From a virus: a stretch of 57,340 nucleotides of DNA. The notes beneath the pieces are model-generated. The model was not told where the DNA came from and searched no databases. It saw only the letters and a program-made list of their open reading frames with translations. Position 1 is the first letter of the stretch; each line of letters begins with the position of its first letter. Shown piece by piece: positions 9,014 to 44,333 of this stretch. Position numbers and translations under genes: made by a program. The DNA lies in IMG/VR virus record IMGVR_UViG_3300035188_001133, positions 1 to 57,340 of that record, one strand, 5' to 3'.

Positions 9014-9184
9014 ATGTCAGAATCCGAATTCATCAAAAAAGGCGTTGTGGAGCGCGAGACCGAAGCGCAACCAGTGAAGACTGCCTCTGACGAAGTTTTT
9101 GAAAAAGTCAGAGCATGTACTCCCACTTGTCGCTGTAATTGTAAGGCAAAGCAAAAAGGAGCTGCTAATGAAGATAGTAAATAA
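9014..9184 (+). CDS. Small Cys-rich hypothetical protein, 56 aa
   Basis: The frame ATG to TAA lies in the gap after the 218-aa gene and overlaps the next start by 17 bases. The C-terminus has four cysteines in a short stretch (CTPTCRCNC), which suggests metal binding or a disulfide. There is no clear Shine-Dalgarno site, so support is mainly the open frame and the tight overlap with the next gene. Confidence 0.4.
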   Translation: MSESEFIKKGVVERETEAQPVKTASDEVFEKVRACTPTCRCNCKAKQKGAANEDSK

Positions 9185-9506
9185 CATTCAAGAGGCAATT
9201 CCGGTATTGGTAGTATCTGTGATGAACAGCGATCTACCGATGGTCAATGCCTTGTTGGATAAGTTTCCAAAGCTAATTGAGTTGCGGGATAAGAGGGGTC
9301 GCACTCTTCTTATGATGGCTGCGTACCTTGGCGACCCCAGCATCATTAACTACCTGGTATCCTTCTTCATCATCGCCAACCCCAAACTAGATCCTAACGT
9401 AGAGGATGAAGACGGGCTAAATGCCCATGACTGGGCGGTACTGGGTGGCAATGAATTCGGCCGCAGTCTATTGATGAAGGTCATGGACTCAGAGGATGAA
9501 CAGTAA
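9168..9506 (+). CDS. Ankyrin-repeat-like small protein, 112 aa
   Basis: The ATG at 9168 follows AAGGAG by 7 bases and is preferred over an upstream in-frame ATG. Residues ~35-60 read as one ankyrin repeat (DKRGRTLLMMAAYLGD) and residues ~75-95 as a partial second (DGLNAHDWAVLGGN). A leading helix pair may be a degenerate capping repeat. Ankyrin repeats bind proteins, so a partner-binding role is likely. The stop overlaps the portal start by one base, placing it in the portal operon. Confidence 0.65.
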   Translation: MKIVNNIQEAIPVLVVSVMNSDLPMVNALLDKFPKLIELRDKRGRTLLMMAAYLGDPSIINYLVSFFIIANPKLDPNVEDEDGLNAHDWAVLGGNEFGRSLLMKVMDSEDEQ

Positions 9507-11368
9507 TGCCTGATTTTTCGTCGTCGTCCGTTCAAATGTCTGGAAGAAGGCAGCTAGCGCATGCCGAGCATGCTCCTAGCCCGTTTTTGGACTACGCATC
9601 TCTGCACCTGCCTACCAATCTAAACGAGGCATTTGAGATTGCGGAAACCATGTACTACAGCAACCGTACTTTTGCGCAAGCTGTAGAGTATGTGGTCAGC
9701 TACTTCACAGGCACGGACATAAACATTGTTTCGGATGACGAGGAAAAGGCCAATCAGTACAAGAAGTTTTTAGTTGAAAAACTGGACTTGAAGACGTTGC
9801 TGTTCATGATAGGCCGAGACGTAAAGGTCTACGGAAACAGCTGCGTATCCGTCCTGGCGCCTTTCAAGAGATTCCTTACTTGCAATAGTTGCGGTGCCAG
9901 CAGACCGATTCAAACCCTGGATTACAAGTTTACCATCAACCACGGGTTTAATTTCCAGTGCCCAAGCTGCGGCAAGAACAGCAGCTGCATGAATCCGGAC
10001 GATCGGCCTACGCTACAGGAGAACGAGATCTACATCAAGCGCTGGCCAATCAAGCAGATGCGCATTGTAGCTCACCAGTACGGCGGAAAGCCAGACTATT
10101 TCTACGAAGTGCCTCCGCAAGACGTACAGCAGATACAGGCAGGAAACAAGAAGTACCTGGAGAGCGTACCTTGGGGCCTAGTGCAATCTGTGCGTTCAGG
10201 AACGTTGTTTCAATTCAGCGATAACATGGTGCACCACTTCTCGTTGGGCAATCTCAGCGACATCAAGATGGGCAATTGGGGGCTGCCTCCTGTCATCGCA
10301 GGATTCCGTGATGCCTATCTTGCGCAGATCCTGAAGAGAAACAACGAAAGCATCGCATTGGATCACATGCTTCCAATTAGAATGGTTACGCCTGCTTCCG
10401 TAGGTGTTGGCGGGGACTTCATGAAGTCCGTCAACATAGGAAGCTTCGGCCAACAGGTAATGCGTTCAGTAGAACGAGCCAGAAAAGATCCAACTGGCTG
10501 GCAGTGGATGCCGCTCCCGGTCAACTATCAGCTGCTGGGAGGAGAGGGCAAGGCATTTGTAGTTCCAGAGCTGCTGGAACAAGCCCAGGCCGACTTCCTC
10601 AACGGGCTAGGAGTGCCGGTCGAGCTGTATAGAAAGACTCTAAGTGCTCAGGCTGCTCCGTTTGCTGCAAGACTATTCGAAGCAGGAGAAACTCACTTCC
10701 TGCACGGGCTACAGACTACGCTTACGTGGCTGGTAGATCGCATCAGCGCTATCCTCAACTGGATTCCGTGCGAAGTAGCTCTCACCAGACCTACCCATGC
10801 GGACGACATCGAGCGCCGTATGCTCATGTTGCAGATGATGATGCAGGGTGTGGCCGCAGAGCAGGATGTACTTACGCTCTTTGGTCTCGACTGGAAGGAT
10901 ACCTTCAAGAAGCGCCAGTCCGAGCAGGAATTCAAGATGCGCTCCGAGAAGGAGTACATGGACAAGATGCGCAAGGCGGAGGAGAACGAGCAGATTATGT
11001 CGGCTCCTCCAGGTGCAATGATCGCAGGTCCCGGTGCTCCTATGGGAGCAGGGGCCATACCTGGAGGTCCAAGCCTTGGAGGTGCTCCCGGAGCTCCGCC
11101 AATGCCAATCAATGGAGTTGCCGGCCCCATGGCAGCAGGTCCAAGCAAAGATCTGGACAGCTTCTTTGCCGATGCTCAGGCCAGAGTCAATGAGATCATG
11201 GCAACTGCCCCCTTGGGTTCTCCGCAACGCAGGCAGATCCTGGATCAGATCAAGGGTCAGGATCCCAATATGCATGCCGTGGTCAAGAGCATGCTGGATC
11301 AGATCACTCAGCAAGCCGAGAACCAAGGCAAAGATCAGTTGCGGCAGCCAGCGCCTCCTCCGCAATAA
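9506..11368 (+). CDS. Portal protein
   Basis: The 620-residue protein has the features of phage portal proteins. An alpha-helical N-terminus precedes a mixed core. A long helix-rich region around residues 370-430 (LNGLGVPVELYRKTL followed by an AGETHFLHGL helix) resembles portal stem/wing sequences. The tail is Gly/Ala/Pro/Met-rich with a Gln-rich end. An insertion with two CxxC pairs (CNSCG and CPSCG, about residues 131-157) looks like a zinc ribbon, which is unusual for portals. The portal is the dodecameric ring at the capsid vertex through which DNA is packaged and ejected. No terminase or capsid gene is visible nearby. Confidence 0.75.
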   Translation: MPDFSSSSVQMSGRRQLAHAEHAPSPFLDYASLHLPTNLNEAFEIAETMYYSNRTFAQAVEYVVSYFTGTDINIVSDDEEKANQYKKFLVEKLDLKTLLFMIGRDVKVYGNSCVSVLAPFKRFLTCNSCGASRPIQTLDYKFTINHGFNFQCPSCGKNSSCMNPDDRPTLQENEIYIKRWPIKQMRIVAHQYGGKPDYFYEVPPQDVQQIQAGNKKYLESVPWGLVQSVRSGTLFQFSDNMVHHFSLGNLSDIKMGNWGLPPVIAGFRDAYLAQILKRNNESIALDHMLPIRMVTPASVGVGGDFMKSVNIGSFGQQVMRSVERARKDPTGWQWMPLPVNYQLLGGEGKAFVVPELLEQAQADFLNGLGVPVELYRKTLSAQAAPFAARLFEAGETHFLHGLQTTLTWLVDRISAILNWIPCEVALTRPTHADDIERRMLMLQMMMQGVAAEQDVLTLFGLDWKDTFKKRQSEQEFKMRSEKEYMDKMRKAEENEQIMSAPPGAMIAGPGAPMGAGAIPGGPSLGGAPGAPPMPINGVAGPMAAGPSKDLDSFFADAQARVNEIMATAPLGSPQRRQILDQIKGQDPNMHAVVKSMLDQITQQAENQGKDQLRQPAPPPQ

Positions 11369-14638: not shown

Positions 14639-15319
14639 ATGAGCAGAGTCCTGGTAATCGGTGATACGCACGCTCCGGCGATGCATAAAGGCTACATACA
14701 GTTCCTGAAGAACGTAGCCAAGAAGTGGAAGACCGACAAGGTCATACACGTAGGAGACGTGGTGGATCATCATTGCATCAGCTTTCACGACAAGCATCCG
14801 GATAGCCCGGGAGCAAGAGACGAATACACTCAGGCATACAATCAGATTCAAAAGTTGTACAAAGAATTCCCTGATGCCGTGGTTACGGTTGGAAATCACG
14901 ACATGCGAGTCTTGAGATTAAATGCCAAAATGGGTATTCCCAAGATGTATCTGAAGGGATTTAATGAACTATACGCCACCGACAACTGGAAGTGGGTTGA
15001 GCACGTAGAGTTGGATGGAGTGTACTATTACCACGGAGAAGGATGCGGAGGTCAGCATCCTGCATTCAATGCAGCCAAGATGCGCATGCAAAATACGGTC
15101 ATCGGACACTACCATAGCGCCTGCGGCATATGGTACCAGGCCGGACCTACGGCAAAGGTATGGGGAATGAACGTTGGATGCGGCGTGGATCGCAACCACT
15201 GGAGCATGCAGTACGGTGCGGCGTTCCTTAAGAAGCCAATTGTGAGCTGCGGAGTGGTCATCGATGGAGATCCGTTCATAGAGACCATGGATTTAGGCGG
15301 AAATACTCGCGCTAAATAA
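14639..15319 (+). CDS. Calcineurin-like metallophosphoesterase
   Basis: The ATG at 14639 follows AGGAGA by 6 bases. The 226-residue protein has the metal-binding blocks of the family in order: GDTHAP (residues 8-13), GDVVDHH (39-45), GNHDMR (85-90) and a late GHYHS. These residues bind two metal ions and hydrolyse phosphomonoesters or phosphodiesters. Large phages often encode such enzymes for nucleotide or nucleic-acid processing. The substrate cannot be read from sequence. Confidence 0.85.
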   Translation: MSRVLVIGDTHAPAMHKGYIQFLKNVAKKWKTDKVIHVGDVVDHHCISFHDKHPDSPGARDEYTQAYNQIQKLYKEFPDAVVTVGNHDMRVLRLNAKMGIPKMYLKGFNELYATDNWKWVEHVELDGVYYYHGEGCGGQHPAFNAAKMRMQNTVIGHYHSACGIWYQAGPTAKVWGMNVGCGVDRNHWSMQYGAAFLKKPIVSCGVVIDGDPFIETMDLGGNTRAK

Positions 15320-15338
15320 ACAAATAAAGCAGGTTAAC

Positions 15339-15386
15339 ATGATTTATAAAGAGTTCATCAGAGCTTTCAAGTTAGGTATTGCCTAA
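15339..15386 (+). CDS. Possible 15-residue coupled micro-ORF
   Basis: An ATG preceded by CAGGT opens a 15-codon frame whose TAA shares a base with the ATG of the next gene (TAATG). The next gene has no ribosome binding site of its own outside this frame, so the micro-ORF may deliver ribosomes to it. Support is positional only. Confidence 0.35.
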   Translation: MIYKEFIRAFKLGIA

Positions 15387-15580
15387 TGGGACGTCGAAAA
15401 AAAGAAACTGGCTTTTCGTATGTAGATATTGTCATATCTACCTACGTTAAAAACAACGACTACGTCAAAGCCCAACTCGCATACTCGAATAACTTGAAGG
15501 CCAACGGCACATTAGAGCCCGGCTTTAAGCAATTTGTAGAACTTGACCTGGACGAGTTTGACGAATCTGACGATGACTAG
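15386..15580 (+). CDS. Hypothetical small protein, 64 aa
   Basis: Short soluble protein with a basic N-terminus (GRRKKE) and a strongly acidic C-terminus ending in a run of Asp and Glu. The start overlaps the stop of the 15-codon frame. It is followed closely by a terminator. Function unknown. Confidence 0.6.
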   Translation: MGRRKKETGFSYVDIVISTYVKNNDYVKAQLAYSNNLKANGTLEPGFKQFVELDLDEFDESDDD

Positions 15581-15591
15581 GCTTGCAAGTT

Positions 15592-15620
15592 AGCCCTTCG
15601 ATCAAAAGAAGGGCTTTTTT
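15592..15620 (+). terminator. Strong intrinsic terminator
   Basis: A perfect 8-bp stem (AGCCCTTC / GAAGGGCT) with an 8-nt loop is followed by six Ts. Confidence 0.92.
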
Positions 15621-15901
15621 ATACCTCATTTTATACGCTAAAAATACAGCATATATGGGGTAACATGACATAGTCCTCTTCAGTAGCTTTTCAGAGGGCC
15701 GCTTACAGCCCATTTTATCTAATCGATAGTGGGTGTTGAAGCATACGACCAGCTACGGTCCGAGTAGCCTCCTACGAGAACGGAGCTTACTGCAGGTGGT
15801 ATTAGGCATCTGCGTAGGTTGAAACCCATCGATGTGGTTCGCCACGAGGCCCAGGCACACGCTTGGACCTCCTACGATCTTCATTGAAAGGAGATAAATG
15901 C
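15621..15901 (+). promoter_or_regulatory. Structured untranslated leader, about 280 nt
   Basis: No coding frame is evident between the terminator and the 15902 start. Several stems can be drawn: GACC/GGTC, GCAGGTG/CATCTGC, GTGG-TTCG-CCAC with a UUCG tetraloop, and CCAGGC/GCTTGG. A longer-range GTGGGT/ACCCAT pairing encloses some of them. The region ends at an AGGAG site. It may be a regulatory leader or part of a larger structured RNA that continues after the gene. Confidence 0.5.
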
Positions 15902-16243
15902 ATGCGAGTAGCGATAGTTGAGGGTCTGATGCGTTATGTCAAGAACGGTATTTCCCCCGGATCCGGCATTCGAGCTGTACTAGAAGGGGATCTATTCCAG
16001 GCCAAGCGCAGCCTGGACAGCTACAACTGGCAATGCCTTGAAGAGATTGTGGACCTAGTGCAGTATTGTCTGCCTATGTCTGCATTCGGCTCCAAGGAAG
16101 CTGTCAAGAAATGGCTGGAGCTGACTCCAGAAGCGCGAGAAGCGCGAGGCTCAGACATTCAGTACTCGCTGCAAATGCTGGAAACTAGGCTGCGAGACAT
16201 CCGAGATCTGGATGCCGCTGCCGCTGCAGTTTCTGCTAACTGA
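15902..16243 (+). CDS. Conserved phage protein of unknown function, 113 aa
   Basis: The ATG at 15902 lies 8 bases after AGGAG. An ATG four bases upstream is out of frame and opens only a few codons. The sequence has the pattern GISPGSGIRAVLEGDL...A...D..N...L..IV, typical of a small helical protein family common in phage genomes (PG.FL.AVL.NDL with a conserved D..N). That family has no established function that I know of. The gene sits between two blocks of structured non-coding sequence, an unusual position. Confidence 0.7.
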   Translation: MRVAIVEGLMRYVKNGISPGSGIRAVLEGDLFQAKRSLDSYNWQCLEEIVDLVQYCLPMSAFGSKEAVKKWLELTPEAREARGSDIQYSLQMLETRLRDIRDLDAAAAAVSAN

Positions 16244-17249: not shown

Positions 17250-17495
17250 ATGTATTGCGTTCAATTCAAAGACAAGGACGACGGACGAATCAATTTGCTA
17301 TTTCGCACTGGAAGGGGTGCGAAAAGGCATTTGCAGCGAGTACGGCATCTCTCTCCCCGATTAGGAGTGAGAGACGGATACCCGCTTTTGGGAGAAAGTC
17401 CCAAACTGCAGTTCTATGCGGAAGTGTTTCCGCCTGGGGATGAACAGATCCCCGACGCGGGATGGTACGTATATTCCCCAGACTACTTGAAGTAG
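17250..17495 (+). CDS. Hypothetical protein, 81 aa
   Basis: The ATG at 17250 follows the conserved hairpin leader. The product is a small, basic, beta-rich protein with no known motif. A competing frame over the same bases lacks a ribosome binding site and is rejected. It shares its leader type with the secreted muramidase-like gene, so the two are likely co-regulated. Confidence 0.6.
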   Translation: MYCVQFKDKDDGRINLLFRTGRGAKRHLQRVRHLSPRLGVRDGYPLLGESPKLQFYAEVFPPGDEQIPDAGWYVYSPDYLK

Positions 17496-17498
17496 TTC

Positions 17499-17557
17499 GG
17501 GTTTTACCTGTCGGGCGTTCCGACAGGACTTCTCATCAGCAACAGGAAACAAATGCA
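17499..17557 (+). promoter_or_regulatory. Hairpin leader of a second type, copy 2
   Basis: Homologous to 17191-17249, with stem CCTGTCGG/CCGACAGG around GCGTT (17507-17527). Relative to copy 1 the stem gains a base pair by changes on both sides, while flanking GGGTTTTAC and CAGCAACAGGAAACAAA are kept. This argues for selection on the RNA. Confidence 0.65.
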
Positions 17558-17983
17558 ATGAAGCCTGTTATTGGAATCATCGTGGCGATGATGCTGTACC
17601 TCGCCGTTCCCACCACCGCCCAGGCTCAGACCTGGGACACCTTCCTGGACGCCATCCAGAAGGTGGAGACTGGGTCCGAAAAGGACCCCAACAATGCGGT
17701 TGGCGACAAGGGCAAAGCCCTTGGAGCCTATCAGATCTGGCATAGCTACTGGCTCGACGCGGTGGAACACCGCCAGGATCTCAAGGCCAGAGGCTACCAG
17801 GCAGTCAAGGATCCTGCCTACGCGAGAGAGGTCATCAAGGCCTACATGGCCCGCTATGCTCCCAAGGGAGCCAGCTGGGAGGACATGGCCCGTATCCATA
17901 ACGGTGGCCCCAAGGGTCACCGTAAGAGCAGCACCAAGGCCTACTGGGCCAAGGTGCAGGCGAAGCTGAAGGAGGCAGAGTAA
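17558..17983 (+). CDS. Secreted transglycosylase/lysozyme-like enzyme (probable endolysin)
   Basis: I chose the ATG at 17558. The first ~23 residues form a signal peptide ending TAQA. The mature part reads AIQKVETG with a probable catalytic glutamate (E37), then GKALGAYQIW and ARIHNGGPKGH. This order is seen in small SLT/lysozyme-fold muramidases of bacteria and phages. It would cut the peptidoglycan glycan backbone after export through the host Sec system. That fits a secreted endolysin or an enzyme acting early on the wall. The stop overlaps the next ATG. Confidence 0.75.
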   Translation: MKPVIGIIVAMMLYLAVPTTAQAQTWDTFLDAIQKVETGSEKDPNNAVGDKGKALGAYQIWHSYWLDAVEHRQDLKARGYQAVKDPAYAREVIKAYMARYAPKGASWEDMARIHNGGPKGHRKSSTKAYWAKVQAKLKEAE

Positions 17984-18381: not shown

Positions 18382-18553
18382 GCAGATAGAGGTAGAGCAG
18401 GACCTAGAACCTGTACGTCCCATAAACCCACTCCTCCGTGAGTACAGCGACGAAGTCGCTCGTTCTCGGGAGGAGATAGCCAGGCTTCGAAAGCGCATCG
18501 AACGCCTTGAGATTGAAAAAGACCTGCTGCTCAAGCTGTTGGAGCGCAGGTAA
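18371..18553 (+). CDS. Small coiled-coil protein, 60 aa
   Basis: I prefer the GTG at 18371, which follows AAGGAGG by 5 bases, over an upstream in-frame ATG at 18323 deep inside the previous gene. The last 40 residues form an uninterrupted charged helix with Leu/Ile heptads (coiled coil). Function unknown. Confidence 0.6.
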   Translation: MQPKQIEVEQDLEPVRPINPLLREYSDEVARSREEIARLRKRIERLEIEKDLLLKLLERR

Positions 18554-18570
18554 CCGGCGCATTTGTTTCC

Positions 18571-18606
18571 GAAGTCGGCAGGGCGAAAGCTCTGTCGGCT
18601 TCTTTC
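18571..18606 (+). terminator. Intrinsic terminator
   Basis: GAAGTCGGCAGGGC pairs with GCTCTGTCGGCTTC across a GAAA tetraloop, with two G-U or compensated pairs, and is followed by TTTC. It ends the 17250-18553 unit. Confidence 0.85.
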
Positions 18607-18693
18607 ATAGTCCTCCTTCTGGCAGACGAGGAGGCACGGCGTTGTAAGCAGGTGCTTACAGCGACGAAAACGTCTGCAGATAAGGAACCCGTT
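18607..18693 (+). promoter_or_regulatory. Short leader with three hairpins
   Basis: CCTCCT/AGGAGG, TGTAAGC-AGGT-GCTTACA and GACG-AAAA-CGTC occur in succession just before the AAGGA site of the next gene. The first hairpin can hide an AGGAGG sequence. No known riboswitch class is recognised. Confidence 0.4.
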
Positions 18694-19227
18694 ATGACGA
18701 CTTTTAAAGAATTGAGGTCGATCCTAAATGAGATCGAGTCTTTGTCCGCAAGATGCAAAGCCGCAGGTCTGTGCCTGCGGTCTTTGCTGAAGGACGTGGA
18801 CGACAAGCCCAAGCAGTCAACTGCCAAGGCTGCTAGTGACTTTCCAGGAAAGTTGAACACCCGACACCGGCCATACCGCTGGAGCGCCGCTCAGAAGAAC
18901 TGGGTCAAGGCTCAGTACAAGGCAGGCAAAACAGCAGTCGATATAGCCGAAGAGCTCGGCACATCTCCTCTCACCGTCGGCAACCTGCTCCGGCTGCTGG
19001 GAGTCCTCTCCAGCAATAAGAAGCGTGCAAGCGCCCGGGTCTCTGTTAGCGAGGCTGTTTTAGGTCTGATCCAAGCCCATGCGGCCAAGGGGAAGATCGC
19101 CCGGACAGATCTACGACGCCATGCTGCAAAGCAACGGCTGACCCCGTACCAAGTCGGCCAGGCCCTCCGCCTCCTGGACGATGCTAAGAAGGTCGTCGTT
19201 GACGGAGACCTGATCACTGTCCAGTAA
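18694..19227 (+). CDS. Putative DNA-binding HTH protein, 177 aa
   Basis: The ATG at 18694 follows AAGGA by 7 bases. Residues 1-35 form a helical, Cys-containing segment. Residues ~62-105 read as a homeodomain-like helix-turn-helix (WSAAQKNWVKAQY..GKTAVDIAEELGTSPLTVGNLLR) of GcrA or recombinase-linker type. Residues ~120-175 look like a second winged-helix-like unit. It could be a phage transcription regulator. The operator is not identifiable. Confidence 0.65.
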   Translation: MTTFKELRSILNEIESLSARCKAAGLCLRSLLKDVDDKPKQSTAKAASDFPGKLNTRHRPYRWSAAQKNWVKAQYKAGKTAVDIAEELGTSPLTVGNLLRLLGVLSSNKKRASARVSVSEAVLGLIQAHAAKGKIARTDLRRHAAKQRLTPYQVGQALRLLDDAKKVVVDGDLITVQ

Positions 19228-19246
19228 CAACCAACCCCGCCCCGAC

Positions 19247-19290
19247 TTAACCCCATATGTTCTTAACGGGTTTGTATGGGGTTAAAAAAG
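19247..19290. terminator. Hairpin between convergent genes
   Basis: TTAACCCCATA pairs with TATGGGGTTAA, followed by AAAAAAG on the plus strand. Read from the minus strand the A run becomes a U run placed before the stem, so its role there is uncertain. Confidence 0.6.
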
Positions 19291-19324
19291 CAGGAGGGCG
19301 CACCCGCCCTCCTGTCTTTTTTTT
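19290..19324 (+). terminator. Strong intrinsic terminator at the convergent junction
   Basis: GCAGGAGGGCG, a CACC loop and CGCCCTCCTG run into TCTTTTTTTTTTAG. It ends plus-strand transcription just before the minus-strand block. Confidence 0.92.
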
Positions 19325-19340
19325 AGATATCTAAGATTCC

Positions 19341-19730
19341 TTATTCGGGTTTTCTTAGAGATTCCAGGTCTTTTATCTTGCTGCCCCCGTCATAGGCCCA
19401 TACGTAGCCAAGTTCAAGCATCTGCTGATTGATCGAGGCTTCCTCACCTTCCATGTAGATGACGGCAAGAGGGTGCCCATACTTGTCATCTTTGAAGGTG
19501 CTTACTTTAAGTTTGCCATTCTGCATTAGCTTTCTTTCCAAAAATGCCTTGGCTTCGTAGCCCATCTTGCGCTCGGTCGCATCTTTAGTAAGTATCTCAG
19601 GAGCGTCGACTCCTTTCAACCTTACTCTTTGTTTAATGGAAATAGAGAAGCCCAGATCCAACAGCATATCGACAGTATCTCCGTCTACTACTCGCATGAC
19701 CTGAAGTACGTTGTAGTGATAAGGAGTCAT
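19341..19730 (-). CDS. Thermonuclease (SNase)-like protein
   Basis: The 129-residue protein matches the staphylococcal nuclease fold: VVDGDTVD (D16, D18), RVRLKGVDAPE (R37, D42, E45), then DKYGHPLA and a helical INQQMLELGYVWAY. In the classical enzyme the position after KYG is the second catalytic arginine (Arg87). Here it is a histidine (H86), so activity may be altered. SNases cut DNA and RNA with calcium. No signal peptide is visible. The start overlaps the stop of the cohesin-like gene by 4 bases in the same operon. Confidence 0.8.
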   Translation of the reverse strand: MTPYHYNVLQVMRVVDGDTVDMLLDLGFSISIKQRVRLKGVDAPEILTKDATERKMGYEAKAFLERKLMQNGKLKVSTFKDDKYGHPLAVIYMEGEEASINQQMLELGYVWAYDGGSKIKDLESLRKPE

Positions 19731-20977
19731 GGCTGGGCAGCTACACCGCGAATGACAGCCGAAGTCAAAGTTCCGGTAACAGACTTTCCGGCCACTACGC
19801 TACCTATGACTCCGCATTCGTCGATAATAGATACGCCTGATAGCCTAGGATCAGATCTAGACACCAGCTCAATTTTAGTGTCTGTAAAATCCTGCAGAGC
19901 CTTGAATCTTAGGGTGACAATCAAAGTATCTCCTGCTATAGGGCGTTTATCTCCAAGCTGAGCTCCAAACAAATGCTGAGCGTTTCCATCCTGAGGAACC
20001 TCGGATTCGTTTAAACCCCCAGGCATGAACTTAGAGAAGATAGACGCCTTGGCTCCCGTCTTATCCATTCCTAATAAAGCAAGTTTGGAAGAGTCCCAAA
20101 TGAAGATAGAGGACACGCTCCAAATTACTTGAGGGGCGGAATCCGGAGTAGTGATTATTTGAACTGCAAAATCATCTCCTGCCTTGACGGGAGTAGCAGG
20201 ACCCTTAAGAGTAAGATTTACTTTTGATTCAGGGCTTGGCCCAAACGCAATTTTATTGACGTCGTTTTGAATTGGCCCAATTACGTTGTTGCCTGTACTG
20301 ATACCTCCGTCGATCTTGGAGTTAACAGACGAGCCGTCTGGCAATTGCGCCTGGGCTACAGCAGTGATGTGAGTAGCCAAAGACTCGGGGTAATAGAAAT
20401 CACCCTTTACTTTAAATTTAAGTCTGCCTAATTGTCGGCTGTTCTGCTCTCTCCAGATAAAGCCTCCAAAATTCCATTGAAAGGGCTGACGTCGTAAGGC
20501 AGGAATTCTAGATTCCGGAGCCTTTAGACACTGTGCGTGAACTTGCACTAGCCCAGGAATCCATTCAGAGGCACCTGACTTAGCCACATCTATTACGGAC
20601 TTATCAGTCATAAAGTGATCAGATGACCACGATACAAACTCTAACTTTTGTGCATCGTAGGAGATCAAAATATCAGAAGATCTCCATACTTGATAAGGAG
20701 CACTACCAGTAGGAGTAGATGGCAAAGCCGCCATCTGCACTGAGACTTCTATAAAAGCATCTCTATATGCAATAATTCCGTTGCGCTTAAGTCCAGCTTG
20801 AGTCTCGTTGCTGTAATCACTACTCAGGGTAACTTTAAACTTCTTGGCAGAATCTATTACGTAGGACGTCGTACCCTGAGACAAAGTAGATGTGCCATTG
20901 GCGTTTTCAGTAAGAGTCTGTCCGTACGAAGAAAAAGAAACAGCTAAAACCAACAGTAAAGAAAACAGTCTAATCAT
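19727..20977 (-). CDS. Secreted protein with two cohesin-like domains, 416 aa
   Basis: A clear signal peptide (residues ~1-19, ending SSYGQ) is followed by two similar beta-rich segments. Each contains the strand pattern of cohesin-type beta-sandwiches. The first has SSDILISYDAQKLEFVSW (near residue 100). The second has SSIFIWDSSKLALLGMD (near residue 290), preceded by PVKAGDDFAVQI and followed by GDTLIVTLRFKAL. Cohesins are the receptors for dockerin modules. A dockerin-bearing protease is encoded upstream on the same strand, with only a holin-like gene between. I infer that this protein could display or recruit that protease. Assignment is by pattern and should be tested by profile search. 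Confidence 0.6.
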   Translation of the reverse strand: MIRLFSLLLVLAVSFSSYGQTLTENANGTSTLSQGTTSYVIDSAKKFKVTLSSDYSNETQAGLKRNGIIAYRDAFIEVSVQMAALPSTPTGSAPYQVWRSSDILISYDAQKLEFVSWSSDHFMTDKSVIDVAKSGASEWIPGLVQVHAQCLKAPESRIPALRRQPFQWNFGGFIWREQNSRQLGRLKFKVKGDFYYPESLATHITAVAQAQLPDGSSVNSKIDGGISTGNNVIGPIQNDVNKIAFGPSPESKVNLTLKGPATPVKAGDDFAVQIITTPDSAPQVIWSVSSIFIWDSSKLALLGMDKTGAKASIFSKFMPGGLNESEVPQDGNAQHLFGAQLGDKRPIAGDTLIVTLRFKALQDFTDTKIELVSRSDPRLSGVSIIDECGVIGSVVAGKSVTGTLTSAVIRGVAAQP

Positions 20978-21171
20978 TTTGACTCCGATTTATTTGAAAT
21001 ATACTTTACGACAGTGCGGCTGCATATGTATAAAGCGCCAAGTACAGTTCCGCATACCATTAGATAGCGGTTATTGACGGGGTCTCCACGTACACCCTCT
21101 ACCAGTCCAGCAAGGACCGGAGCCAAGGCCACCCAAAACTCAGTAGTTTTGGTACCTGGTTTTACTTCCAT
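20974..21171 (-). CDS. Small membrane protein, holin-like, 65 aa
   Basis: The start lies 4 bases after AGGAGG on the minus strand. The protein reads KPGTKTTEFWVALAPVLAGL, then a short loop and a second hydrophobic segment (LMVCGTVLGALYICSRTVV), ending in a basic tail. KTTEFW followed by two transmembrane segments is characteristic of a group of small phage holins. It would form the membrane lesion that times lysis. The neighbouring genes are a nuclease and secreted proteins, not an endolysin, so its role is inferred. Confidence 0.6.
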   Translation of the reverse strand: MEVKPGTKTTEFWVALAPVLAGLVEGVRGDPVNNRYLMVCGTVLGALYICSRTVVKYISNKSESK

Positions 21172-21275
21172 AAAACCTCCTATTTAATTTAAATTGCTTG
21201 AGTCTTGCTGCCTTGCCTAATGCAAGCGCGACATAAGCTAATTAGTCACTTACTTTACTCAAGGTGACTAGTAGC

Positions 21276-21303
21276 ATTGTAACAGTTCATAGAAGTCGTG
21301 CAA
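21276..21303 (-). promoter_or_regulatory. Minus-strand sigma-70-like promoter
   Basis: On the minus strand TTGCAC (21298-21303) and TACAAT (21276-21281) are separated by 16 bases. Transcription would begin near 21269 and cover the holin-like, cohesin-like and nuclease genes. Confidence 0.6.
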
Positions 21304-21353
21304 CAGCCCGGTACCTCAAAAAGTATAGGCATGTTGTGTATGTAAGCGAACGT

Positions 21354-22403
21354 TTAAGATTTAGGTTTGGTATTCGTGCTGTTGTCAGGCTGAACAGTAG
21401 TCGGAGGTTTGAAGAAATTTGTCTGCATGACGTACGCTCCCCATGACGCAAGCAACTCGGATAGGTCAGCAGAGTCTACCACTCCATCTTTATTTAAATC
21501 AGCAAGGGCAGATCCATTGCCCCAGGCGCCAATGATCTGAGCAAGATCAGAGCCATCCACTAATCCATCCTGATTTAAATCAGCAGGCTTAGCAGAAATT
21601 TTAAAATGCTCTACGGAATAACCTTGAGGCTGCAATACTGCGTTTATAGCAGCTAGCTCTACATCGTTTACCTGCATGCCGCCGTGCAATAGACCTACAA
21701 AAATAGTAGTACCGTTGTAGTCAATAAAGGTTGGCGATCCGCTGTCTCCTCCAAATATAGCAGGCCACCCGTTTGCAGTAATACCGATGTTAATCGGATC
21801 AAGGCTAGGATTGTACGTGTACTGAACTGCAGATCCGGCAGTGCTAAGTTGAGCCTGACCAAAAAGCATCTTGTAAGCTTTGCCGTTGCACTCATGAATC
21901 CAAAGAGGAGTGCCTGCTGGAATGTACTTTATATCGGCAATTTTTGAATAGCACGGGACGTCAGTAATAAACGGCTCTTGAAACTCGATGAGAGTATGGT
22001 CTGGGCCTATGTTTAAATAAGCCTTTGAGACTCTGCCTGTGTAGAAGGTACCTGAGCGTCCTAAGAAGGTGTAGTACTCCTCGGGTCTGTCATGAGTACC
22101 TCTATAGTGCTGGCATATCAAAGCATGCTTAGGGGATATCAAAACAGCTGTGGGATTGCAGGTATTCCAGAAGTTAATGTTCTCTGCTTCGTATGGGGCA
22201 GTCCAACCAGTTTGAAATACAGTGCCTATCGTTCTGCAGAATGCTCTAGGACGTATGCTTACGCCGTTCCACAGAATATGAGCAGCGTGGCATTTTGAAT
22301 TTAAGCCAAACGGACTTGCATCCAGTCTGGGATTTAAAGTAGCAGGATAGGCGTAAGTGTGAATGTCGTGTACGGTTGGAATATATGTCTTTAATATAGC
22401 CAT
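21354..22403 (-). CDS. Trypsin-like serine protease with C-terminal dockerin domain
   Basis: I chose the ATG at 22403, 7 bases after AGGGG. The in-frame TTG at 22451 lies inside a hairpin. The 349-residue protein has a chymotrypsin-fold triad: SPKHALICQHY (H99), PDHTLIEF (D135) and GGDSGSP (S221). Two dockerin repeats follow, DLNQDGLVDGSDL and DLNKDGVVDSADL (about residues 275-317), each with the D-x-N-x-D-x3-D-x2-D calcium loop and a trailing AWG/SWG helix end. A Pro/Thr/Asn-rich tail ends the protein. Dockerins bind cohesins, and a cohesin-like protein is encoded in the same block. No signal peptide is evident. Likely target: a host surface or virion protein. Confidence 0.8.
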   Translation of the reverse strand: MAILKTYIPTVHDIHTYAYPATLNPRLDASPFGLNSKCHAAHILWNGVSIRPRAFCRTIGTVFQTGWTAPYEAENINFWNTCNPTAVLISPKHALICQHYRGTHDRPEEYYTFLGRSGTFYTGRVSKAYLNIGPDHTLIEFQEPFITDVPCYSKIADIKYIPAGTPLWIHECNGKAYKMLFGQAQLSTAGSAVQYTYNPSLDPINIGITANGWPAIFGGDSGSPTFIDYNGTTIFVGLLHGGMQVNDVELAAINAVLQPQGYSVEHFKISAKPADLNQDGLVDGSDLAQIIGAWGNGSALADLNKDGVVDSADLSELLASWGAYVMQTNFFKPPTTVQPDNSTNTKPKS

Positions 22404-22446: not shown

Positions 22447-22472
22447 GTCAAGTGCTGAAATTTTTAAAACTA

Positions 22473-23228
22473 TCAGCAGTCCCATTTCTTTCTGGCCAAG
22501 CAGATTCTCTTGTCTGGAGTCTTGGAGCAATCGATGTTGTGCATGCGACGCTGGCCGTCAGAACGGGCACAGAAGCTGCTACGACGCTTGGCCTTGGCTG
22601 GACTCTTATCGGCAGCCTCAGCGCTCACCGGAGGCTTCAGGTTGCCACCAGTAGCCTTGTTGTAGCTAGCTCTGCCCTTGGCGTTGAGACCACCCTCCGG
22701 GTTCTTACCCTCGGAACGCTGCCAGGCTGGAGAAGAGGCCGCCCACTTTAAAAGACTAGCAGTCAATAAAGAAGTATCTGCTTTTTTACTTGCATAACGC
22801 ACCAATCTAGGCTCAGATCTATTGTACGGATCGGGAAGATCTGCAACAGAATCTACTCCGTACATATCGCTGATAGATTTAGACCTCCAAACATTTTCAT
22901 CTTCATCTAAATCTATCGTGTAGTATTTTCCATCCGGGCCCTTCGCCGTAAATGGATTCACGTAAGGAGTAAACATGTGGCGTTGAATATCGGTAAAGCC
23001 TAAATTTTTAAGGGACTTCTCTACTTCAACGTCAGGATCGTCACTATCAGAAGGGTCAGGAATAGAGATTTCGTTAGGACTGGGATCGCTGCTAAATAAG
23101 CCTAGAAAGGCTTTTTTGCTGCACTCCTCGCAGTCGCAACTTTCTTCATCCATACCGCAGTCACATTCTGCAGCAAGCTTTTGCATTAGATAATAACGAA
23201 GTAGGTTGTACTGTGCGGATTTATTCAT
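22473..23228 (-). CDS. DUF6321-type protein, 251 aa
   Basis: The ATG at 23228 follows AAGGAAA by 7 bases and replaces a longer in-frame start. The C-terminal ~90 residues carry AWQRSEGKNPEGGLNAKGR and SFCARSDG...RKKWDC, the hallmark of DUF6321 proteins, which are found in many phages without known function. The N-terminus has a cysteine-rich cluster (CDCGMDEESCDCEEC) that may bind metal. The middle is acidic. It sits first or second in the minus-strand block and overlaps the glycine-zipper gene by 8 bases. Confidence 0.75.
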   Translation of the reverse strand: MNKSAQYNLLRYYLMQKLAAECDCGMDEESCDCEECSKKAFLGLFSSDPSPNEISIPDPSDSDDPDVEVEKSLKNLGFTDIQRHMFTPYVNPFTAKGPDGKYYTIDLDEDENVWRSKSISDMYGVDSVADLPDPYNRSEPRLVRYASKKADTSLLTASLLKWAASSPAWQRSEGKNPEGGLNAKGRASYNKATGGNLKPPVSAEAADKSPAKAKRRSSFCARSDGQRRMHNIDCSKTPDKRICLARKKWDC

Positions 23229-23646
23229 TAGTCGTTTCCTTTTCTTTAATCCCAAACGTAGGGGTACCTACAAGTGGACTTAGGCCTTTTACTTCAACGG
23301 CATTAAGAGCGTCAACAACATATTGCAACATTTTAGTGTTGGCTCTAGCCGCAGAATCCTCTAAAGCATTTTGTACACCCTTACCTATATTGCTTGCACC
23401 CACTCCTGCTCCAATACCCGCACCTGCCAAACCTCCAAGGCTCATACCTTGTAAAGCTCTGCGAAGATACTGAGCTTGATCTGCAGGAGTAAAGAAAGTT
23501 TCTTTAAGTAACCCTCCACCTGCACCTAAACCTGCTCCTAGTACTCCGCCAAGTCCAGCTCCAATTAATGCCCTAAGACCTTGCAGTCCGTCGGAGTTGG
23601 CTCCCTCAAATAGAGCCGCCTGTTTACAATGAGCGTATGGAATCAT
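23221..23646 (-). CDS. Glycine-zipper hydrophobic protein, 141 aa
   Basis: The ATG at 23646 gives the N-terminus MIPYAHCKQA, which matches the MTPYSHY...KQA starts of several plus-strand genes in this window. The body has glycine-rich membrane-type segments (GAGLGGVLGAGLGAGGGLL and GGLAGAGIGAGVGASNIG). No Shine-Dalgarno site is visible, and a TCGACA/TAAAAT pair lies just upstream on the minus strand. Likely a virion-internal or membrane-interacting protein. Function unknown. Confidence 0.6.
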   Translation of the reverse strand: MIPYAHCKQAALFEGANSDGLQGLRALIGAGLGGVLGAGLGAGGGLLKETFFTPADQAQYLRRALQGMSLGGLAGAGIGAGVGASNIGKGVQNALEDSAARANTKMLQYVVDALNAVEVKGLSPLVGTPTFGIKEKETTNE

Positions 23647-30134: not shown

Positions 30135-33100
30135 ATGCCTACGCCCGGCGCAGACGACTTAAACCAACTCGTAACCCCTCTTGCCCCGGTGCTGAGGGGT
30201 TTTAGCGATTATCGCACTACTCGTAAAAACATATTTGATGGAGTGCGTAATGCGGTGGCGAAGAAGTTCCCGCTTCAGAATGCCCGCTACACAATTGAGG
30301 CTGCGGATCTTCATTACGGCAGAGAAGAGCCGTATTCTCTAAAAGAACAGCAAGAGGCCTTGATGCAAAATCAAAGCCTCTTTGTTCCTCTTAGAGGCAG
30401 GCTTGTAATGAAGGACAATGCCACTGGTCAGGTAATGGACCAGACGGACAGATCCATAACCTTGGCTCGTGTTCCCTATCTTACGGACCGTGGTACTTTC
30501 ATAAATGCTGGCAGCGAATACACTGTTGCTAATCAGTCTCGTCTTCTTGCAGGACCATATGTCCGCAAGAGAAAGTCCGGTGAGTTTGAGGCGCACTTCA
30601 ACACCATGCCCGGCAAGGGTCGTGGTTTTCGCGTTGCATTCATGCCTGATACGGGAAAGTTTGTTGCTGAGATAGGCCAGTCCGTTGCTCCAGCTTATCC
30701 CATGTTCAAGGCTTTAGGCGTCGATGATTCGGTGCTGGAGAGAACCTGGGGCAAGGAATTGCTGGAATCTAATAAGCTCGGCTCCAGCTATGACGCAGCA
30801 CGTATATATGAGCGTCTTACTAACAATCCCTCCAAGGGACTAGATGACAATACTATCTACCAGGGAATCAAAGATGCGTTGAATTCCACGGAGCTTGATC
30901 CTGAGGTTACCCGACGCACTCTGAGCTATGCCGGAGCCCTTCGCAAAAAGGCAGATGTGCCTATTCGCGGAACGCTCAAGATAGAAGACACCGGGTACAT
31001 AACCGTACCTGCCGGTCTGGTTGACGGAGTGTTCTATGCCCTGCGAGATTCCGATAAATCTCCGGCAATTGCCCCAGTCAACGACAAGGGCCGGCTGATA
31101 GTAATCACTAGTGACGAGATTCGTCAGCTGAAGAAAGTATTCAAGAAGAGCTTTGAGGCCACCTGTGGCTCCGGCCGTAGATTCACCTATCAGATCCGTG
31201 GAGTGCTGCCTCCAAGCAACGGAGAGTACTGCATCGATATCGAGTGCCCGGAACTTGAGCAGTTGCGCAGAAGTCTCCTGTTGGAGGCCAAGCCTCGCGG
31301 TGGATTCCGGTTGGCAGTAGGTGTAAAGGTCGCCTCTGACATCAATGACCTATTAACCGAAAAGCAGGCAGCACCGCAAACTGCCGGCTTTGATGCCGCA
31401 GATTACGAACAGCTTCAGCTGAATGAAGAGGACTTCGGCCGTATTACCGGCAATACTCTGCTGCGGGCATCTCAGAAGATTCTAAATGCTCAAAAGGGTT
31501 TTGAGGATCAGGACGACCGTGACTCCTTGGCCTATCAGAAGTTCCTGAGCGCAGAGGACTTCTTCTCAGAGCGCATTGAAAAGGACGCAGGTGCAACTCT
31601 ACGCACCGCCATGTTCAAGGCTACCAACAAGGGTAATCTCAATGCCTTCAAGAACGGAGTATTCACTCCTGTACTGAATGGCGTATTGCTTGGTTCCGGA
31701 CTGGGAGCTCCCATCGAGGAAGTCAATCCGATGGAGATCCTGGACCAGAACATGAGAGTTATCCGCACCGGAGAAGGCGGCATAGGCTCCGCTGCACACG
31801 GCATTCCAGTAGATAGCCGTTCGGTGCAGCCCTCTCACTTAGGCTTCCTGGATCCGGTACGTACTCCGGAATCCGATAAAGTAGGTATCGACCTTAGACT
31901 TACCGTAGGCTCCTACAAGGGAGCTGATGGTCAGATTTACTCCAAGATGCGCAAGGTCAAGACAGGAGCCATGGAACCTGTGGCTGCCCGTACACTGACC
32001 GACTCTATAGTCGCATTTCCAGGAGAACTCGCACGCTCGGCAAAGACCGGAGATCCTGTAAGAGCCATGGTGCGTGGCCGCATTTCCTATGTCGATCCTG
32101 CAGAGGTCGAGTACGAGGTGCCTGCCTACAGCAACATGTTCAACGTCAACTCCAATCTTGTTCCAGGTATTTCTGGAATCAAGGGTGGCCGACTGCTCAT
32201 GGGCTCCAAGTACTTTACCCAAGCGTTACCTGTCCAGGAGGCCGAAGCGCCCCTGGTACAGGGATTAGATCCCAATGATCCGGAAGGCAAGTCGTTTGAG
32301 GAGCAACTGGTTCCTCACCTTGGCGCAGTACAGTCGGAGCCGGAATTCGGCAACGGTTTGGTTACTGCGGTAACTCCGGACTACGTCGAAGTAAAGCACG
32401 GCAAGGAAAAGCGTCGCTACGAGCTGTACAACAACTTTCCGTTCAATCGCAAGACCTATATCCATAACACTCCGATGGTCAAGATCGGAGACCAGATCAA
32501 GCCCGGACAGCTGTTGGCTAAGTCCAACTATTCTGACGATCAGGGCAGAATGGCCATGGGTCGCAATCTGAAGGTGGCCTATACGGTATGGGGAGATCCG
32601 GAGCTTGGAGGCTCCAACTTCGAAGACGGCGTGGTAATGTCTGAATCCGCCGCAAAGAAGATGTCCTCCGAGCACATGTACACCGTCGGCTATGACGGCA
32701 AGGACGACTACGAAGCCAACTTTAGCAAGTTTGTATCTCTATTTCCCGGCCAGTACAACAAGGATCAGCTCAAGAACCTTGACTCCGCAACAGGTGTGGT
32801 CAAGCCGGGCACCGTGCTTAATCCTGGCGATCCTATTATCCTAGGCGTAGGTGAGCGTAAGTCTGATACGTTCGGCCTGATGAAGAAGGCTCGGCCAAGC
32901 TATACCAACCGTGCTCAGACCTGGGACCACAGCCAGCCAGGAGTAGTTACCAACGTAACCAAGACTCGCAGTGGATACCAAGTAGCGGTAAAGTCCTACA
33001 AGCCGATGTCCGTTGGAGACAAGCTGGTAGGTCGATACGGAGACAAGGGTGTAATTTCCACTATTATTCCTGACGCAGACATGCCAAAGGATAAGGACGG

Positions 33101-43967: not shown

Positions 43968-44333
43968 GGGCCTGACCAGGTTTCGACTGGTGATTGTTGC
44001 GATAGAGAGCAAGCCGGAGTTGGTCGAAAGGCTCCGTAAAAAGTCGACTAAATCAAGACTGCCAACGAATGGTACGTCCCCTCTGAGTCCCCCGCTCTCG
44101 CAGCGGCCTGACTTGGAATCCTGAGCAGGACTCCTGCTAGACGCTCAGGATAAAACCCAGCAGGGTATGGCGGTGGAGGCTTCCGAGCCAACCCCGTTGA
44201 GAATCGAAGTCGGATAGGATCTGCAAACCCTGCCCATGGGGTCGAGCAAATCCGAACTGCAATTGTGGGATAAGCTTGTAGTTGCTCTTTCAATACGTCA
44301 TTCAGCACGGGGGTTCGACTCCCCCCAGGTCCA
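43968..44333 (+). ncRNA. ssrA: tmRNA (transfer-messenger RNA)
   Basis: The 5' end GGGCCTGACCAGGTTTCGAC and 3' end GGGGG-TTCGACT-CCCCC...CAGGTCCA form the tRNA-like domain. The acceptor stem is 7 bp and keeps the G3-U70 wobble needed for alanine charging. The resume codon is GCC at 44061. The tag reads ANEWYVPSESPALAAA before TGA at 44109-44111, ending in the Ala/Leu-rich degron recognised by host proteases. The length of 366 nt is normal. tmRNA rescues stalled ribosomes and marks products for degradation. Phage-borne tmRNAs are known but uncommon. Confidence 0.93.

Follow-up and report, generated by a model that had tools for sequence, protein, structure and literature searches.

The locus and its two proteins

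The window, that is, the whole 57,340-base stretch of DNA analysed here, is the IMG/VR virus record IMGVR_UViG_3300035188_001133, and two further records of 174,569 and 59,837 bases come from the same virus. A cluster of four genes on its minus strand is the subject of this study, the last of them a nuclease-like gene described further below. P0001 (21354-22403) encodes 349 residues, a likely serine protease with a C-terminal dockerin; P0003 (20974-21171) encodes a 65-residue membrane protein with a single hydrophobic segment by hydropathy, a holin candidate by position; and P0002 (19727-20977) encodes 416 residues with two cohesin-family domains. Both P0001 and P0002 are present at 100% identity in the two other records, and the 174,569-base record holds a single dockerin match and a single cohesin-domain match, about 1.2 kb apart. 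The pairing of cohesins with dockerins is calcium-dependent and known from cellulosomes, and in planctomycetes it has only been proposed. A preliminary description of this DNA had read the locus as a cohesin-dockerin module, with P0002 as the second gene downstream of P0001 on the same strand; this layout and the coordinates and reading frames given for it are borne out.

The open reading frame of P0001 was called from a TTG at 22451, and the aligned relatives favour the ATG at 22403 that had been chosen before. Its dockerin (21432-21587, minus strand) passes the cut-offs of both Pfam PF00404 (28.9 bits against 22.9, E 1.4e-6) and NCBIfam NF041540 (30.8 bits against 29, E 2.8e-7), and it contains two complete 12-residue calcium loops, DLNQDGLVDGSD at 21546-21581 and DLNKDGVVDSAD at 21465-21500, as had been claimed. 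Conservation was counted over nine distinct sequences, the window's own and those of eight of the 12 other contigs that carry this protein, the remaining four being identical to one of these. All 10 calcium-ligand positions are invariant (hypergeometric p 1.2e-5 within the dockerin), compared with 108 of 349 positions over the whole protein and 0 of 25 in the tail that follows the dockerin; the calcium ligands are thus kept in the related phage proteins. By these sequence features the dockerin of P0001 is a real one.

The protease part (21591-22403, minus strand) contains His, Asp and Ser motifs in that order, H99 (22107-22109), D135 (21999-22001) and S221 (21741-21743), and the label chymotrypsin-type was given because of these triad motifs. 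The three residues, and H93 as well, are invariant in the nine sequences. This part of the earlier claim stood, but none of the nine proteins matches a Pfam protease family, and three trypsins in the PDB match P0001 weakly around the Ser region (E 0.57-0.98). P0001 is therefore likely, as far as motifs and conservation go, to be a serine protease.

The P0002 protein begins with a signal peptide (20918-20977), recognised by inspection and hydropathy in agreement with the preliminary description. It has no meaningful match in Pfam, PHROGs or NCBIfam, and neither P0002 nor its domain profile found a relevant sequence in the PDB. The evidence for its C-terminal domain (19742-20242, minus strand) comes from structure and from profile comparison. 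Residues 240-416 were modelled by AlphaFold with the help of 21 viral relatives, and the model reached a predicted local distance difference test (pLDDT) of 83.7 and a predicted template modelling score (pTM) of 0.81. In a Foldseek search with this model, the best 50 of 68 matches at E ≤ 0.001 were cohesins, scaffoldin complexes and 2o4e, an entry titled protein-protein interaction module, with a best E of 1.7e-7. The VIA-align comparison with 2vo8 gave Z 14.9 and a root-mean-square deviation of 2.5 over 135 aligned residues, and rank 50 was an adhesin CLIPPER domain at Z 10.3. The structure prediction that had been proposed for the 416-residue protein thus gave a cohesin for this domain and not an unrelated fold.

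The profile evidence agrees with the model. A profile of 20 domain matches from Phycisphaerae-class genomes and the window's C-terminal domain (A1) was compared by hhalign with 19 bona fide cohesins, which PF00963 had identified in genomes of Ruminococcus, Clostridia and Bacteroidales, and scored 93.4% (P 2.5e-7); against a second set of six planctomycete cohesins it scored 82.0%. The C-terminal family profile gave at most 0.7% with 12 reversed, shuffled or unrelated decoys. In Pfam, P0002 has no match to PF00963, its relatives in L208 and L137 stay below the cut-off of 24.1 bits at 21.1 and 18.9, and one of the 21 A1 members matches PF00963, at E 0.014. Because P0002, L137 and L208 all miss this cut-off, the C-terminal domain, which is a cohesin fold according to the model, is termed divergent.

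The N-terminal half of P0002 (domain at 20270-20854, minus strand) gave weak matches as a single sequence (2.2%, 4.3% and 15.8%). Two full-length relatives of P0002, 38% (L207) and 41% (L208) identical and with no dockerin over the stretches covered, were added to it, and the resulting profile matched the 43-sequence family at 98.1% (P 8e-14), with eight decoys at 0.4% or less. This match indicates that P0002 is a tandem of one family, the first copy of which is degenerate. Against two bona fide cohesin sets the N-terminal profile scored 61.5% (A2) and 7.6% (A3). Of the two cohesin-like segments described earlier, the C-terminal one is then a cohesin by fold and the N-terminal one belongs to the same family, but the assignment of the N-terminal copy as a cohesin is, on these profiles, less supported.

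Three other results for P0002 were set aside or negative. A model of the whole protein was discarded (pLDDT 33.2). Matches by tblastn to 72 phage records (70 of Pseudomonas and 2 of Photobacterium, best E 0.07) were taken as chance. A search of BFVD returned seven models at E ≤ 0.001, none of them named cohesin and four without a name.

Recurrence in other phages

Proteins of the P0001 type, searched for with P0001 and one relative as queries, occur at 14 viral loci, two of the window virus and 12 on other IMG/VR contigs, where they are 51-55% identical. The cohesin domain was found in 29 further contigs (25, then four more), some of which are near-identical; the first 25 contain 21 distinct domain sequences. 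It is fused to a dockerin in 24 of the 29, according to a dockerin profile made for this study, to which some of these sequences contributed, and unfused in L147, L159, L160, L207 and L208. Pfam Dockerin_1 matches in 20 of 24 tested cohesin records at E ≤ 0.01, in 17 of them above the cut-off. Among the first 25 cohesin proteins, hydropathy and inspection found a signal peptide in 14 and none in ten, and one is truncated.

The genes around the cohesin domain include UvsX, DnaB helicase, primase, ribonucleotide reductase and baseplate wedge in L151 and L154, and a phage RNA polymerase, head-tail adaptor and major head protein in L147. These differing neighbours indicate that the domain occurs in at least two kinds of phage. 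The protease-dockerin likewise crosses lineages, with sheath, portal, scaffold and T4-type capsid genes in L178, a head-tail adaptor in L185 and a terminase in L189. Contamination by host DNA was considered; in a check that covered part of the contigs, several loci hold sheath, portal, capsid, connector, terminase, RNA polymerase or replication genes. No record in a set of 50,697 phage records matches P0001 at E ≤ 1 or, at E ≤ 0.01, a cohesin-dockerin protein or the L207 protein.

Some further proteins were seen at these loci or on other viral contigs. A tubulin/FtsZ-family gene (L153 6380-7567, plus strand; PF00091 6.7e-12) directly follows a cohesin-dockerin gene, and a protein with a prokaryotic N-terminal methylation (prepilin) motif (L184 8296-9438, plus strand) is encoded shortly before a protease-dockerin. 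Two other viral contigs encode small proteins that have a hydrophobic N-terminus and an EF-hand pair like that of dockerins (L011 7914-8240 and L012 1572-1904). Beside cohesin-dockerin genes lie secreted-looking proteins with an end that we take to be PEP-CTERM-like (L142 7112-7822, L143 6884-7558 and L148 3202-3876), and relatives of these are encoded in L146 and L192. The cluster 16 proteins, which lie beside cohesin-dockerin genes, were compared with the beta-barrel family described below and are unrelated to it (at most 0.2%); their end presumably is a PEP-CTERM.

Planctomycete counterparts and probable hosts

Among the matches listed for the P0001 dockerin in genome contigs, the top one is in a Phycisphaerae metagenome genome, at 61% identity. 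At least 26 of the 61 matches listed carry Planctomycetota titles, and the others come from Bacteroidales, Ruminococcus, Poribacteria and more. Of the 18 genomes with the closest dockerins among these matches, 4 have a Pfam cohesin at E ≤ 0.01, two of them above the cut-off.

The 397 genomes of one class, that of G003 (the genome of L013, titled Phycisphaerae bacterium), were searched with both proteins. P0002 has matches at E ≤ 0.01 in 43 of them, nearly all to its C-terminal domain. In many of the matches listed, a dockerin or a PEP-CTERM-like end comes after the domain: in L086, L088 and L089 the planctomycete protein has the cohesin domain followed by a dockerin, and the cohesin-domain proteins of L084 and L091 have an end that we take to be PEP-CTERM-like. 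Because planctomycete genomes fuse the same domain to the same type of dockerin or to PEP-CTERM, the hosts of these phages are probably Planctomycetota. A profile of a planctomycete subset (A4) found no viral relative. For the protease domain, the 397 genomes gave two weak partial matches and no credible relative, and its capture from such a host therefore lacks support.

Neighbouring genes and composition

The P0003, P0002 and nuclease-like genes follow one another with four-base overlaps, which suggests coupled translation. The last of these is Staphylococcal-nuclease-like (19341-19730, minus strand; PF00565 2.3e-14) and shares its four-base overlap with the P0002 gene. In 5 of 30 loci, a nuclease gene directly adjoins that of the cohesin; a profile built from three of these five found no further nuclease in the 30 loci. 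On the other side, P0001 adjoins a DUF6321 gene (22473-23255, minus strand; PF19846 1.9e-22). Members of its family (cluster 1; the L181 copy matches at 9.4e-25) are adjacent or close to the protease-dockerin in 6 of 14 loci, and the window virus accounts for two of these. A destabilase-type lysozyme gene with a hydrophobic N-terminal segment (17462-17983, plus strand; PF05497 8e-11) is near the cluster, and a relative of P0003, 60% identical over 47 residues, is encoded near a lysozyme in L167. The guanine-cytosine content is 44.9% in 19341-22403, compared with 52.3% in the part before 19341 and 49.3% beyond 23664.

The closest phages by RNA polymerase (L162-L164 and L166-L169, 73-90% in the best segment) share flanking genes with the window. 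In the covered stretches of these relatives, a search at E ≤ 1e-3 detected neither P0001 and P0002 nor the nuclease, and this absence marks the parts as accessory. An inserted and inverted cassette was considered for the window and not kept in that form: L162 and L166 have the DUF6321 gene on the same strand as the RNA polymerase, but L168 and L169 have it on the other strand, which is also the arrangement of the window. Since its strand varies among relatives, no origin of the present gene order is claimed. The polymerase itself is encoded by an open reading frame of 1640 residues (30135-35057, plus strand), in which Pfam recognises RNA polymerase beta (Rpb2) and beta-prime (Rpb1) parts in one. 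It matches in one piece in L162-L164 and with an interruption of about 1.1-1.2 kb near residue 780 in L167 and L168, perhaps an intein or intron. The window also contains a transfer-messenger RNA gene with a tag peptide (43968-44333, plus strand) and seven tRNA genes.

Do the protease and the cohesin belong together?

The preliminary description had joined the two proteins in one module. The identity of both parts is upheld, but a dedicated pair is not what the other records contain. The cohesin domain was not found in any of the 12 other protease-dockerin records, and a P0001-type protease was not found in any of 32 other virus records, 25 of which are cohesin records; many of the records on both sides are fragments, and L192, L201, L207 and L208 were covered over partial stretches only. 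Among the searched records, the two co-occur only in the window virus. Furthermore, the cohesin is absent from all seven RNA polymerase-related phage records and the dockerin from six of them, the sole dockerin (G450) being on a 51%-identical protease. No signal peptide was seen by inspection in the nine P0001-type proteins (hydropathy was applied to P0001 only). In the probable hosts, a Pfam cohesin match is absent from 14 of the 18 genomes with the closest dockerins among the matches listed, G003 included. Finally, the presence of a cohesin and a dockerin in one polypeptide does not imply that they bind one another. All these points weigh against the mechanism proposed below.

Other phages connect the two gene sets in less direct ways. 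In L192, a cohesin-dockerin protein is encoded 4 kb from a subtilase (14672-16129, minus strand; PF00082 2.3e-41), and L184 encodes a P0001-type protease together with a similar subtilase (18410-19837, minus strand; PF00082). Both subtilases end in a dockerin-like pair of calcium loops: the profile built here recognises the dockerin at 1.7e-13 in L192, where Pfam gives 13.6 of 22.9 bits, and at 2.6e-12 in L184, where Pfam has no match at E ≤ 0.01. Homologous beta-barrel-like proteins, which have signal peptides, are encoded next to the cohesin gene or one gene away from it in L145 (3050-3844), L149 (6810-7565) and L207 (5510-6283; PF13557 1.9e-6) and about 5 kb off in L144, and the same family directly follows the protease-dockerin in the near-identical contigs L179-L182 (L181 11326-12081). 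In the same way, a protein of about 470 residues is encoded directly before the protease-dockerin in L189 (8555-9973), a 55%-identical copy lies one gene from the L207 cohesin (9152-10558), and a relative is found two genes from the cohesin-dockerin gene in L141 (3678-5573); this family of about 470-630 residues has no Pfam match in the three members scanned. These links speak for a shared module. The better-supported reading is one of mix-and-match cohesin and dockerin parts, which these phages have in common and which their probable hosts use as well.

Proposed mechanism and alternatives

The most likely reading, to which we give even odds, is that the window virus encodes a cohesin-dockerin module which would bring proteases to the envelope of its planctomycete host, as a viral counterpart of the planctosome described below. 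The mutual binding, location, timing and purpose that we infer for it would be as follows. P0002 would be exported by its signal peptide and present two cohesin-family domains at the envelope. P0001, having no signal peptide, would remain cytoplasmic until a late stage of infection, when the membrane is breached, and its calcium-bound dockerin would then tether the protease to the phage scaffold and/or to cohesins of the host surface. Proteolysis tethered in this way would be concentrated on the envelope or its surface proteins, and may aid the release of progeny or prevent re-adsorption. A link to lysis is drawn because the holin-like P0003 stands between the two genes, the lysozyme-like gene at 17462-17983 is near and the P0003 relative lies near the L167 lysozyme.

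A wider form of this proposal, which we offer tentatively and rate a little short of even, is that unrelated lineages of planctomycete-infecting phages carry a modular, calcium-dependent proteolytic scaffold made of exported cohesins, dockerin-tagged proteases of S1-like or subtilisin type that can replace one another, and surface anchors encoded by the phage. The anchors would be an outer-membrane beta-barrel or a PEP-CTERM protein, and the window virus would have a minimal two-cohesin form; this part, too, is tentative to the same degree. If true, it would to our knowledge be the first viral cohesin-dockerin assembly system, and the planctomycete proposal would become testable with small phage proteins. 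It would also mean that phages may attack or remodel envelopes by tethered proteolysis, it would indicate the hosts of anonymous phages, and the pairs could extend the set of specific protein clips for laboratory use.

The absence of each partner from the records of the other (12 of 12 protease-dockerin records and 25 of 25 cohesin records) favours an alternative without mutual pairing, which we regard as rather unlikely yet the most serious competitor. In that case the dockerin would anchor the protease on host cohesins, and P0002 would separately occupy dockerin proteins of the host, for example blocking superinfection or mimicking host surface proteins, a role to which we give the same limited probability. 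Genomes of the probable host class do encode the cohesin domain and dockerins, and some of them Pfam cohesins as well. However, the sole copies of each part in the window virus are 1.2 kb apart, another contig combines a cohesin with a tagged subtilase, and 14 of the 18 genomes with the closest dockerins among the matches listed have no Pfam cohesin match.

It is improbable that the dockerin is a tag for surface sorting or anchoring, interchangeable with PEP-CTERM, and the cohesin-like domain a general surface domain with no contact between the two. In planctomycete proteins the domain does precede either a dockerin or a PEP-CTERM-like sequence, and NCBIfam names the NF041540 family 'dockerin domain-anchored', but P0001 lacks a signal peptide and continues beyond its dockerin into the variable 25-residue tail, and both calcium loops are complete in the relatives. 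Very improbable is a virion- or head-associated protease whose dockerin binds a structural partner, which would suit the lack of a signal peptide, the L178 gene standing third after a T4-type capsid gene, the terminase about 6 kb off in L189 and the DUF6321 gene beside the protease-dockerin in several loci, but not the signal peptide of P0002, the only cohesin of the window virus found, nor the holin-like and lysozyme genes by P0001 in the window and the neighbours that vary between loci.

Comparison with known systems

In the open-licence literature, surveyed mostly by listing, no description of phage cohesins or of dockerin-tagged phage proteases was recognised. The protein Gp02 of Escherichia coli phage HSE2 is a phage protein described with the word dockerin; a segment of this structural protein was modelled on 2wz8 and termed a carbohydrate-binding module, and unlike P0001 no calcium-loop pair is described in the part of that report concerned with it (PMC5967307).

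Compared with cellulosomal pairs, the window virus has the cohesin fold (6kgc_A, Z 14.8) and a double F-hand dockerin, but the identity to the listed solved structures is 7-18%, the 174-kb record yielded a single dockerin, that of the protease, and P0002 has no Pfam domain. A role in cellulose degradation was dismissed, as the enzymes seen to carry the tag are proteases. The non-cellulosomal cohesin modules of Clostridium perfringens are among the best structural matches (2vo8, Z 14.9; 2jh2, Z 14.4); there, the cohesin lies within a glycoside hydrolase, according to the entry title, whereas in the window virus the cohesin and a likely protease are encoded by separate genes. The GC-type dockerin proteins of NCBIfam NF041540 resemble P0001, which passes their cut-off, but P0001 is phage-encoded, has no signal peptide that could be seen and extends 25 residues past the dockerin.

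The closest likeness is with the planctosome, which was proposed, as a hypothetical structure, for freshwater Nemodlikiaceae of the class Phycisphaerae, with dockerin-tagged peptidases on cohesin proteins (PMC6461901). In that proposal, the tagged peptidases are held by cohesin-bearing secreted proteins and no cellulose role is involved (PMC6461901). Phycisphaerae is also the class of the closest dockerins among the matches listed for P0001. The planctosome is cellular, with M12B and M14 metallopeptidases and a lamin-tail anchor with P-domains (PMC6461901); M12B or M14 peptidases and a large lamin-tail anchor were not among the ten window proteins scanned with Pfam. The window virus differs in that its parts are phage-encoded, its predicted peptidase is serine-type and its cohesin-family domains are two in a 416-residue protein. 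The combination on which the planctosome is built, a dockerin-tagged predicted peptidase and a cohesin-bearing protein predicted to be secreted in one organism, is present here as P0001 and P0002.

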